From Candidatus Kuenenia stuttgartensis (GTDB lineage Bacteria > Pseudomonadota > Alphaproteobacteria > SMXS01): a stretch of 64,000 bases of DNA. The notes beneath the pieces were generated by a model, which did no database searches, was not told the DNA's origin, and saw only the letters and a list, made by a program, of their open reading frames with translations. The DNA lies in the NCBI GenBank assembly GCA_943329845.2, contig CALQFM020000015.1, positions 1 through 64,000 of the forward strand, in the 5' to 3' direction. Position numbers and translations under genes: made by a program. Below are positions 5,194-8,795 of the stretch, in pieces (position 1 is the first letter of the stretch; the number at the start of each line of letters is the position of its first letter).

Positions 5194-5598
5194 ATGCGCC
5201 TTCGACTGCCGATTATCGTGGGCGCGCTGCTGCTGTGGAGCGGCGGCGCGTTCGCCCAGGCCGACAAGTTCGAGGACCAGCCGCCGGCGCCCGCCGGCGA
5301 CGGCGGACAGGGCACGCTGATCCAGATGTGCAACGAGGACGACGTGCAGGCCGCCCTGCGCGAGTGCCAGTCGAAGATCCGCTACTACGAGACCGAGATC
5401 CGTGAGTTCGAACGCCGCAAGGCGCGCAAGGACACGGACGCCACCTCGCGCCAGCTCCAGTGGCTGCGCAACATGCAGTACGACCTGACCCGCTACAAGG
5501 ACGCCTGCGCGAAGATCGAATACGGCCTGCAGCAACTCCGCGCCCATCCGGAAACCCGCTGCGACGCCAACGGCGAGAAGTTCAAGAAGGCGGAGTAG
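5194..5598 (+). CDS. Small secreted hypothetical protein
   Basis: Signal peptide MRLRLPIIVGALLLWSGGAFAQ; 2 nt after previous stop. Confidence 0.6.
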   Translation: MRLRLPIIVGALLLWSGGAFAQADKFEDQPPAPAGDGGQGTLIQMCNEDDVQAALRECQSKIRYYETEIREFERRKARKDTDATSRQLQWLRNMQYDLTRYKDACAKIEYGLQQLRAHPETRCDANGEKFKKAE

Positions 5599-6772
5599 CG
5601 GCCAGCAGCGCCGCTGCGTCCTCCAGTTTCATGGCCGACTGCGATCCGTCCCGCCGCCGCAGGGCGACGGAGCCGTCCGCCGCCTCGCGGTCGCCGACGA
5701 TGGCCATCACCGGAATGCCGGCCTCGTGGGCCCCGACGATGCGGCGGGACAGGGTCTCGTTGCCGTCCCGCATGACCACGCGCAGGCCCGCGCGGTCGAG
5801 GGTCTCCCACACCTGACGCGCGTAGCCGCCCTGCCGGTCCGAGACCGGCGCCACCGCCACCTGTTCCGGCGCGAGCCAGAACGGCAGCGCGCCGCCATGG
5901 TGTTCCAGCAGCACGCCGACGAAGCGGCCCATGGAACCGAACACGGCGTGATGGATCATCACCGGCACGGCGCGCGAGCCATCGGGCGCCACATAGGACG
6001 CCTCGAGCCGTCCCGGGAGGACGCAATCGAGCTGCACGGTACCGCACTGCCATGACCGGCCAAGCCGGTCGCGCAGGATGAACTCCAGCTTGGGGCCGTA
6101 GAACGCGCCCTCGCCCGGCTTGATGAAGAATGCCAGGCCACGCGACCGCGCCGCCTCCTCGAGCCGCGCCTCGGCCCAATCCCATTGCGCGTCGGAGCCG
6201 GCGCGCTGGTCCGGACGGGTCGCCAGCGCCACCTCATATCCGGAGAAGCCCAGCGCGGCATAGACCTCATGCAGCAGGTCGACGAACCGGCCCATCTCCT
6301 CCACCGCCTGATCCTCGTGGCAGAACACGTGGGCGTCGTCCTGCTCGAAGCCACGGGTACGCATCAGGCCGTGCATCGAGCCCGATGACTCGTTTCGATG
6401 GCACTGGCCGAACTCGGCGTAGCGGATCGGCAGCTCGCGCCACGAGCGCAGGCCCTTGTTGAAGATCTGCACGTGGCACGGGCACGACATGGGTTTCAAT
6501 GCCATCTCGCGGCCGCCCTCGTCCTCGACGAGGAACATGTTGTCGCGGAATTTCTCCCAGTGGCCGCTGCGTTCCCACAGCACGCGCGGCAGCACCATGG
6601 GGGTGCGCACCTCGGCATAGCCCAGGCGGCGCATGCGGCGTCTGATGTAGTCCTCCAGCACCCGGTAGACGGCATAGCCGCGCGGATGCCAGAACACCAT
6701 GCCGGGCGCGTCGTCCTGCAGGTGGTAGAGTTCGAGCCTGCTGCCCAGGCTGCGGTGATCGAGATCGTCCAT
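5582..6772 (-). CDS. Truncated threonyl-tRNA synthetase (catalytic and anticodon-binding domains only)
   Basis: Class II ThrRS motifs: HPRGYAVYRVLEDY, MALKPMSCPCHVQIFNKGLRSWRELPIRYAEFGQCHRNESSGSMHGLMRTRGFEQDDAHVFC, GEGAFYGPKLEF, CGTVQLD, HHAVFGSMGRF, C-terminal VPVMAIVGDRE-like. Starts at the point equivalent to the beginning of the catalytic domain, so TGS and N2 editing domains are absent. Confidence 0.93.
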   Translation of the reverse strand: MDDLDHRSLGSRLELYHLQDDAPGMVFWHPRGYAVYRVLEDYIRRRMRRLGYAEVRTPMVLPRVLWERSGHWEKFRDNMFLVEDEGGREMALKPMSCPCHVQIFNKGLRSWRELPIRYAEFGQCHRNESSGSMHGLMRTRGFEQDDAHVFCHEDQAVEEMGRFVDLLHEVYAALGFSGYEVALATRPDQRAGSDAQWDWAEARLEEAARSRGLAFFIKPGEGAFYGPKLEFILRDRLGRSWQCGTVQLDCVLPGRLEASYVAPDGSRAVPVMIHHAVFGSMGRFVGVLLEHHGGALPFWLAPEQVAVAPVSDRQGGYARQVWETLDRAGLRVVMRDGNETLSRRIVGAHEAGIPVMAIVGDREAADGSVALRRRDGSQSAMKLEDAAALLAATPPS

Positions 6773-6826
6773 TTGCTGTACTCCTTGGGTTGAGGGGCAC
6801 GGCGGGGCGTTCTGCTGCGCAAAAGA

Positions 6827-6856
6827 AAAGGCCCCGTCGTCGCCGGCGGGGCCTTT
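6827..6856 (-). terminator. Intrinsic terminator/attenuator in the leader of the truncated thrS
   Basis: - strand AAAGGCCCCG-CCGGCGACGA-CGGGGCCTTTTCTTTT: perfect 10-bp stem plus U-rich tract, 55 nt upstream of the synthetase start. Confidence 0.9.
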
Positions 6857-6877
6857 GCTGGTGAATGCGGTGAGAGT

Positions 6878-6958
6878 TTACCGCGCGCGACCACAAGACC
6901 GACCGCCGGAGGCGGTGGTCGTCGTCGTCGTGCTCGGGTTTTGGCGCATCGCGTTCAT
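6878..6958 (-). CDS. Threonine-rich leader peptide MNAMRQNPSTTTTTTASGGRSCGRAR
   Basis: ATG...TAA ORF with six consecutive Thr codons (ACG x4, ACC x2) followed by a terminator and then a ThrRS gene. Confidence 0.88.
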   Translation of the reverse strand: MNAMRQNPSTTTTTTASGGRSCGRAR

Positions 6959-6964
6959 GGCGGT

Positions 6965-6993
6965 TTTATGCTCTCGCGATGTCGCTCGGTCAA
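6965..6993 (-). promoter_or_regulatory. sigma70-like promoter for leader peptide and thrS
   Basis: - strand TTGACC-N17-CATAAA; the expected start lies at or next to the A of the leader ATG. Confidence 0.6.
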
Positions 6994-7000
6994 GCCCGCC

Positions 7001-7139
7001 CTAGAACCTGAACGCCACCGTGGCGCGGCCGGTCTAGTTGTTGCCGTTGTCGCCGATCAGGCCGTCATAGCCCAGCGAAACCCGGACCGAGGCGGCCCAG
7101 CAACGGCGTCGAGCTGAACGACAGGGCCGCCGTCCACGG
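7001..7139 (-). pseudogene. C-terminal remnant of an autotransporter / outer-membrane beta-barrel protein
   Basis: - strand reads RVSLGYDGLIGDNGNN*TGRATVAFRF*, a typical autotransporter barrel end with terminal Phe, interrupted by an in-frame stop; WTAALSFSSTPLLG in another frame just upstream. Confidence 0.6.
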
Positions 7140-7994
7140 CTACAGCGTCTTCAGTGGGCTGAACCCGTCGACCACGCCGACGGTCGCGCCGACCACCCAC
7201 CAGCCGATCAGCCGTTGCACGACGCGGGGCATCTGCCTGACCGTGTCGCGCGGCACTGACAGATAGAGGTTCTCCTGCTGCCGCAGCCAGCCCCGGTTGT
7301 AGGTGAGGATGATCGACCGCCTGATGGCATCGGAGTTGTTGGCGCCGCCCGCGTGCCAGAGCGATCCGTCCCAGAGGATCGCCGAGCCCGCGGGCGTCAC
7401 GGCCCGTGTCGTCGGCAAGCCGGGATTGTCGTAGTCCGGCTGCTTGTGCGAGCGCGGCATGACGATGGTCGCGCCATTGTCCTGGCGGTAGTCGTCGATC
7501 GGCCAGGCGACGCTGACCGAGATCGGCGGGAACGGCTTGCCGGTCCGGTAGTAGGTGTCGTCCTCGTGCAGCACCTGCGCAGCCTGCCCCGGAAAGATCG
7601 AGTAGGACGCGGCGCTCGAAAGCTGGATCTGGTCGTTCAGGTGGCCTTCGACGACGGCGAGCACATCCGGATGCGCCGCCAGCTCCCACACCGCCGGCAT
7701 CTTTCCCATCAGCCCGTAAATGCGCTGGGCATTCTCGCCCTCGAAGGGACTGCGTCCGAACGGCGTGACCTTGTGCAGTTCGTCCATGCCGGTGCGCAAC
7801 GCCGCCAGATGCTCAGGGGACAGCAGACCCGGGAGGATGACCCAGCCTTCCCGATCGAGGCTCTCGATCTGCACCGCCATACGCGCCCGCTGATCAGGCG
7901 AGGTGATGCGCTCCTGCGCCGCCAGATCCTGGGCTTCCTTGCCCATGGGATCGAGCGCGAAGGCCTGCTTCGGATTGGCCGTCGTCTCAGTCAC
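7140..7994 (-). CDS. Phytanoyl-CoA dioxygenase (PhyH) family protein
   Basis: DREGWVILPGLLSPEHLAALR; Fe/2OG ligand context HEDDTYY and GSLWHAGGANNS. Confidence 0.85.
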   Translation of the reverse strand: MTETTANPKQAFALDPMGKEAQDLAAQERITSPDQRARMAVQIESLDREGWVILPGLLSPEHLAALRTGMDELHKVTPFGRSPFEGENAQRIYGLMGKMPAVWELAAHPDVLAVVEGHLNDQIQLSSAASYSIFPGQAAQVLHEDDTYYRTGKPFPPISVSVAWPIDDYRQDNGATIVMPRSHKQPDYDNPGLPTTRAVTPAGSAILWDGSLWHAGGANNSDAIRRSIILTYNRGWLRQQENLYLSVPRDTVRQMPRVVQRLIGWWVVGATVGVVDGFSPLKTL

Positions 7995-8583
7995 CGTCGC
8001 CGTGCTTCCAGTCGGCGCCGGTTCCGGCCAGCAGTTCTTCCAGCAGAACGCCGATCGGCCGGATCGGATCGCTGCCGTCCCAGGTGTCGGCCGCGTGCTT
8101 GATCATGCCGAACAGCTTGATGTAGAGCGGATCGTGCATCATCAGCTGCACCATGGTGCCCGGATGGTCGATCGAATCCAGGTAGACGTGCCGGTTACGG
8201 TTGGTCTGGGTGATGTCGATATAGGACTGGGTCACCTCGAACCGCCTTCCCTCGGCCTTGAGCTTGTTCACCACATCGTCGGGCTCCTCGGCCCATACCG
8301 CGATGTGCTGCAGGCCGCCCTCCGGCACGCGCTTCAGATAGTCCTTGTAGATGCTGGGTGCGTCGCCGTGGGGCTGTATCAGTTCGATCTGCTGGTCGCC
8401 CGAATAGGTGAACGCCGGCGACAACTCGAATTCGTACTGCTTGCCGTAGTAGAGACCGGGAAGCTTGAGATGCTCGTCCACGTAGAACGGTCCGATACCG
8501 ATCTCGATCCAGTGCCTGGTGGCCTCGCGCATGTTGGGAACCACATAGCCCTGCTGGATCACAGGTCCGAAAATCCGGCTCAT
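7987..8583 (-). CDS. VOC family (glyoxalase-like) protein
   Basis: GPVIQQGYVVPNMREATRHWIEIGIGPFY ... GGLQHIAVWAEE ... GTMVQLM; overlaps the downstream PhyH start. Confidence 0.8.
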   Translation of the reverse strand: MSRIFGPVIQQGYVVPNMREATRHWIEIGIGPFYVDEHLKLPGLYYGKQYEFELSPAFTYSGDQQIELIQPHGDAPSIYKDYLKRVPEGGLQHIAVWAEEPDDVVNKLKAEGRRFEVTQSYIDITQTNRNRHVYLDSIDHPGTMVQLMMHDPLYIKLFGMIKHAADTWDGSDPIRPIGVLLEELLAGTGADWKHGDGD

Positions 8584-8795
8584 GACAAGTCTCCCGTTTC
8601 GTATCGCCGCAGGATGGTCATCCCCGGAACGGTCGACGGCGCAAGCGGCCCCCCTCCGAGCCACTGGCGCCGTCCCGTCTCCCCCAGGTAGATCACTATG
8701 TGTGGCCGAAGGTTACTGTTGGTCAACTCTTTGTGCAACCTTAAATAAAACACGTTTTTATCGGCAGTTGCTGGGTGGCACGCGTGAATGAATCA

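Follow-up and report, generated by a model that had tools for sequence, protein, structure and literature searches.

A short threonyl-tRNA synthetase without editing domains, preceded by a threonine-codon leader, in Proteobacteria and Myxococcaceae

Bacterial threonyl-tRNA synthetase (ThrRS) is a textbook example of an enzyme that requires its editing domain. In the yeast mitochondrial ThrRS, MST1, the entire editing domain is missing and the protein consists of a catalytic core and an anticodon-binding domain; MST1 is functional in this form, although in vitro it does produce Ser-tRNA(Thr) (PMC4267643). Bacterial ThrRS truncated at the N-terminus in the laboratory is a dimer that activates threonine fully and charges tRNA more weakly (PMC4267643). 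Anabaena possesses a second, editing-impaired enzyme, T2 (thrS2), beside an accurate full-length ThrRS that edits in trans for it; in T2 the editing domain persists in a degenerate form that carries an insertion, and low zinc is the stress that induces the enzyme, via Zur (PMC4787780). Obafluorin producers also have a second ThrRS, ObaO, in which serine replaces G463 and methionine replaces L489; since the construct that was expressed covers residues 241-637, natural ObaO must be longer (PMC11252418). In the archaeal split system, ThrRS-cat is a catalytic protein without editing, which is supplied in trans by ThrRS-ed. Finally, the thrL attenuator of Streptomyces lividans places a threonine-containing leader peptide upstream of an ordinary thrS, with two Thr codons and no clear terminator (PMC8079986).

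Here we describe a gene for a 396-residue ThrRS, located on the minus strand at 5582..6772 of the window (the whole 64-kb stretch of DNA that was analyzed), that combines a class II catalytic core with an anticodon-binding domain. Its layout is that of MST1, as far as architecture goes. However, MST1 is the sole mitochondrial enzyme and about 34% identical in a structure alignment, whereas the short ThrRS is a second bacterial enzyme, apparently under attenuator control, that lies inside the proteobacterial ThrRS tree (MST1 is not in that tree). The domain boundary, including the DHR start, is identical to that of a truncated E. coli ThrRS construct comprising residues 242-642 (1evk, PMC11252418), which was made in the laboratory, whereas the short ThrRS is natural. 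The preliminary description of the locus had drawn a parallel to cyanobacteria. This holds for the presence of a second, editing-impaired ThrRS but is looser than proposed, since the editing domain of T2 is damaged rather than lost and Zur regulates the gene (PMC4787780), whereas the short ThrRS lacks the domain wholly and has a threonine leader as its apparent control element. It also differs from the archaeal split enzymes, being of bacterial-type sequence and without a separate editing protein, and from ObaO, neither of whose two substitutions occurs in the window's short form. Compared with S. lividans thrL, the leaders of short thrS genes usually contain 4-10 Thr codons and are followed by a strong terminator.

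Domain architecture and active site

The short thrS frame begins with ATG and is preceded by a Shine-Dalgarno-like AAGGAG (6781..6786, minus strand) that is kept within the genus. Its coordinates and length are exactly those given in the preliminary description, which had also stated that the TGS and N2 editing domains are missing. Profile searches and alignment confirm this. Only tRNA-synt_2b and HGTP_anticodon exceeded the Pfam cut-offs, and the NCBIfam thrS model TIGR00418 matched at 463.7 bits, above its curated cut-off of 383.65, although the match spans no more of the model than positions 172-558 of 565. Residues 243-615 of E. coli ThrRS (1qf6) align with the protein starting at its fifth residue (DHR), and the crystallized truncated E. 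coli core 1evk aligns with it nearly end to end. Likewise, the first structural matches of an AF2 model (pLDDT 82) are E. coli ThrRS catalytic constructs, with 8h99 as the top PDB match (TM 0.87). The protein is thus a ThrRS by family threshold and lacks the TGS and SAD editing domains of the canonical full-length enzyme. We also looked upstream of the ATG for a hidden in-frame TGS or editing region, which would speak against a truncated enzyme, and rejected it: the frame is open for just 35 codons, which are filled by terminator and spacer. No tRNA genes were found within the 64-kb window.

The residues that bind zinc and threonine, checked against E. coli numbering, are invariant across 15 aligned short forms. 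The zinc ligands C334, H385 and H511 and the motif 2 and 3 arginines R363 and R520 are present in all 15, in line with the earlier statement that the catalytic motifs and the Cys/His/His ligands are kept. A change from CPGH to CPCH had been noted, and comparison with full-length enzymes shows it to be common alphaproteobacterial background. Cysteine is the majority state at this position in alphaproteobacterial full-length ThrRS (24 of 40, against glycine in 10 and alanine in 6), the full-length ThrRS of the window's own genome has alanine, and the position varies inside the window's genus.

Other substitutions do mark the family. N333S is found in 15 of 15 short forms, V376T in 13, and R512H in 14 (with glutamine in the remaining one), where 40 of 40 full-length enzymes have arginine. 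Myxococcaceae short forms retain R512, so R512H is not clade-wide; those at loci L074, L086 and L096 have KPVSCPGH and HRAL in place of MSCP and HHAV. In the anticodon-binding domain, helix 580-589 is rewritten and several positions conserved in full-length ThrRS are altered there, for which reason the short forms may differ in their use of tRNA. N575 is lost in 8 of 15 short forms and retained in the window protein, as are E600 and R609.

Leader, terminator and antiterminator

The preliminary description had called the region upstream of the gene a Thr-responsive leader, and the architecture bears this out. On the minus strand, a sigma-70-like promoter (TTGACC-17-CATAAA, 6965..6993) directly precedes the ATG of a leader peptide frame, MNAMRQNPSTTTTTTASGGRSCGRAR (6878..6958), which contains six consecutive Thr codons (four ACG, two ACC; 6914..6931) that form the presumed stall site. 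Downstream lies an intrinsic terminator hairpin, AAAGGCCCCGCCGGCGACGACGGGGCCTTT, followed by TTCTTTT (6827..6856, −21.2 kcal/mol). The segment CCGGCGG (6903..6909) is complementary to CCGCCGG in the 5′ arm of this terminator and, in partition-function folds with a ribosome on the Thr codons, is the predicted antiterminator.

This plan recurs in relatives. A threonine-containing leader peptide lies upstream of short thrS at all of the approximately 48 loci inspected, with 2 to 10 Thr codons and usually 4-10; just two were noted in a single leader. A TTGAC-type −35 element stands at equivalent spacing in 27 of 29 leaders examined, and a terminator hairpin 17-37 nt past the leader stop in every proteobacterial short-thrS locus folded (27/27). 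Caballeronia and Burkholderia arboris share the order of promoter, leader and terminator. A further 18 short-thrS loci, two of which duplicate loci included before, all have the leader, and 14 have the terminator as scored by a strict text pattern. At three Myxococcaceae loci the leader is present and a U-tailed hairpin of comparable strength was not found; the leader begins with GTG at L074, L086 and L096.

Among full-length thrS genes, a Thr-rich upstream frame was seen in only 2 of 61, one of them convincing. In this one (L037, approximately 400-620), the leader MRTHPVLRSTATTTTTATGGRWRMRA and a hairpin resembling a terminator accompany an alphaproteobacterial thrS of full length, in a genome (G059) where no short form was found. 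Such a gene suggests that the attenuator may have had its origin at a thrS of the ordinary kind.

Folding links the leader to the terminator. When a ribosome is placed as if stalled at the Thr codons, upstream sequence pairs with the terminator's 5′ arm at a mean of 0.78 (taking the best stall position of each leader, by partition function), against 0.49 when the upstream sequence is shuffled. With the ribosome at the leader stop codon this pairing falls to 0.08, partly owing to the shorter free RNA. Equilibrium folding of the full leader still favors the terminator in most loci, so a switch would require the antiterminator to form co-transcriptionally, before the 3′ arm is made. In classical attenuators the antiterminator must likewise form ahead of 3′ arm synthesis. 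No T-box or other Rfam element was matched in the 64-kb window at the gathering threshold. The anatomy, namely a leader rich in cognate codons, an intervening intrinsic terminator and an alternative antiterminator freed by stalling, supports a stall-dependent switch that would sense a shortage of Thr-tRNA.

Distribution, phylogeny and genomic context

Three other genomes of the window's genus encode a short ThrRS of the same length, 89-90% identical. Two more genomes of the genus have an empty site at the syntenic position: the sequence of G006 skips from window position 5581 to 7039, and that of the complete genome G003 from 5567 to 8628. Beyond the genus, short forms were found in 14 of 387 alphaproteobacterial genomes and 9 of 398 genomes in a phylum sample, and every carrier in these two samples has at least two ThrRS matches, the second of which, where listed, is full length. 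A short form is carried by 20 of 119 genomes in the genus to which G549 belongs (placed in the tree near Bradyrhizobium sp. STM 3809), and in that of G635, beside Paraburkholderia lacunae, 39 of 121 genomes have a match with a short frame. A contig scan with a short motif was dominated by full-length ThrRS of Bacteroidota, yet yielded named carriers. Those named are Bradyrhizobium sp. STM 3809, Inquilinus limosus, an Azospirillaceae MAG, Paraburkholderia lacunae, Myxococcus and Corallococcus; large replicons of Caballeronia and Burkholderia arboris also carry short thrS. ThrRS-like genes are seen in mobile element collections as well, with matches in 566 Klebsiella plasmid records, coverage of at least 80% of the query in 106 of 695 matching plasmid records from all organisms, and ThrRS genes in phages such as Sinorhizobium phage Phosso.

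Phylogenetic analysis of the short ThrRS had been proposed as a check, and yielded a single clade. In a 105-row tree, a quick one whose full-length set is biased toward good matches of the query, 30 short forms are separated from all other rows by a branch whose SH-aLRT support is 100. The clade adjoins alphaproteobacterial full-length ThrRS (97) and spans Alphaproteobacteria, where it is sporadic, Betaproteobacteria and Myxococcota (Myxococcaceae). The full-length ThrRS of the window's genome lies deep within the alphaproteobacterial full-length group, so a recent truncation of the host's own thrS was rejected. The tree argues for the N-terminus having been lost once, with later horizontal spread, rather than for repeated truncation. 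Among four members of the genus dN/dS is 0.09-0.12, which indicates purifying selection and rejects a pseudogene. Outside the clade, L076 (Giovannonibacteria) has a ThrRS frame of 411 codons whose start also falls near the catalytic domain. It has no Thr leader and could stem from a separate truncation event or from a gene that is split.

Beyond close relatives, no neighboring genes around short thrS are shared between families. We therefore rejected a functional partner gene, and take the mobile unit to be the leader plus the gene. In the window, a PhyH-family dioxygenase gene (7140-7994, minus strand) separates the thrS leader from the next gene and is absent from this place in three other carriers. 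Within 7010-7140, a 49-base stretch matches the flank of the empty site in G006 at 84%, and may be what is left of a gene that the incoming cassette disrupted. Two Bradyrhizobium-type copies (G848:C1:1221872 and G815:C6:101585), one interrupted by an internal stop and one missing its N-terminus in the match, indicate that short thrS can be lost.

Searches of the rest of the genome for a full-length thrS and for free-standing editing domains had also been suggested. The former is present on contig 23 as a 684-codon frame with intact editing motifs HDAAH and DLCRGPH, and the short form is therefore not the genome's sole thrS, which would have weighed against a backup role. Apart from this protein, SAD editing domains occur only in a frame of 891 codons on contig 72 that we interpret as AlaRS. 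The genome-wide domain search found no archaeal-type editing domain, and no free-standing editing protein of either the SAD or the archaeal type. Trans-editing, if needed, must then come from the full-length ThrRS.

Function and rival explanations

In our reading, the short ThrRS is probably an accessory, horizontally spread backup enzyme that is induced by attenuation and whose Ser-tRNA(Thr) errors are cleared in trans by the full-length ThrRS. A stress-induced backup had been proposed before, and it remains plausible with a full-length gene elsewhere in the genome and a Thr leader upstream. Transcription would start at the promoter directly upstream of the leader. When charged Thr-tRNA is abundant, the ribosome would complete the leader and the terminator would end transcription; when it is scarce, the ribosome would stall at the Thr codons, the antiterminator would form and short ThrRS would be made. 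It is from this anatomy that we infer induction on Thr-tRNA shortage. The core alone would activate threonine and charge tRNA(Thr), buffering lost ThrRS capacity. Misacylation with serine is to be expected, as the editing domain is absent and the threonine pocket unchanged, and the housekeeping enzyme, free or in mixed dimers, would remove the product. The work on truncated ThrRS, MST1 and Anabaena makes emergency ThrRS capacity with delegated editing the best reading. Simple threonine starvation would be a weak selective reason, because an extra synthetase does not supply threonine; a housekeeping ThrRS that is lost or inhibited is the more coherent trigger. As to origin, the leader and gene would have arisen once in the history of proteobacterial ThrRS and then spread horizontally as a stand-alone cassette.

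In one rival explanation, the short ThrRS is itself insensitive to a natural inhibitor, whether borrelidin, obafluorin or a different compound, and its induction follows a block of the housekeeping enzyme. The attenuator would register blocked charging, the distribution is patchy and among soil bacteria, and producers do use second ThrRS genes for resistance, as with ObaO (PMC11252418). The preliminary description had likewise offered an inhibitor-resistant form, which the known borrelidin and obafluorin sites (PMC11252418, PMC4389257) do not bear out. G463 and H309 are present in 15 of 15 short forms and L489 in 14 (methionine in one other than the window's), so the window protein has neither G463 to S/A nor a change at L489 or H309, and Y462 and the other checked pocket sites match ordinary alphaproteobacterial full-length ThrRS. 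Conserved biosynthetic neighbors are also absent, and we regard this rival as unlikely. Raised ThrRS dosage alone gives E. coli borrelidin resistance (PMC4389257), and tolerance of this dosage type through the short ThrRS is possible. Considerably less probable is a zinc-stress paralogue that, like T2 of the Anabaena T1/T2 pair (PMC4787780), would substitute for zinc-depleted full-length ThrRS. It would account for a duplicated ThrRS with impaired editing and for N333S and R512H, which adjoin the zinc ligands C334 and H511. However, three of three zinc ligands are retained, no metallochaperone neighbor is held in common, and the upstream control element is a Thr leader rather than a recognized Zur-type switch.

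The natural loss of editing beside an unchanged threonine pocket, with induction predicted precisely at Thr-tRNA shortage, could also point to regulated mistranslation, in which the mobile, attenuation-induced enzyme would load serine on tRNA(Thr) as a regulated response, and serine at Thr codons would sustain translation. The carriers checked, however, have a full-length editing ThrRS that would clear Ser-tRNA(Thr), which makes this slightly more doubtful again than the zinc paralogue. Least probable of all, we judge, is a synthetase-like protein with a non-translational role or an altered tRNA substrate. The changes at 580-589 and the loss of N575 in about half of the short forms would fit it, but the window protein keeps N575, E600, R609 and every catalytic residue are retained, and the attenuator ties short thrS to the level of Thr-tRNA.

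The main point of the preliminary description holds, and the case is wider than the sequence by itself could show: rather than a lone truncation, leader and gene make up a conserved, mobile unit, which adds a new variant to the duplicated, editing-impaired ThrRS enzymes. We found no description of the family in the open-access literature searched, though one may still exist. A widespread, naturally editing-free ThrRS beside an editing-competent copy offers a system in which to test the delegation of editing to a second enzyme, and the pair could show how much serine-for-threonine error cells tolerate. The apparent Thr-tRNA sensor on short thrS, in turn, could reveal which stress exhausts ThrRS activity in bacteria.
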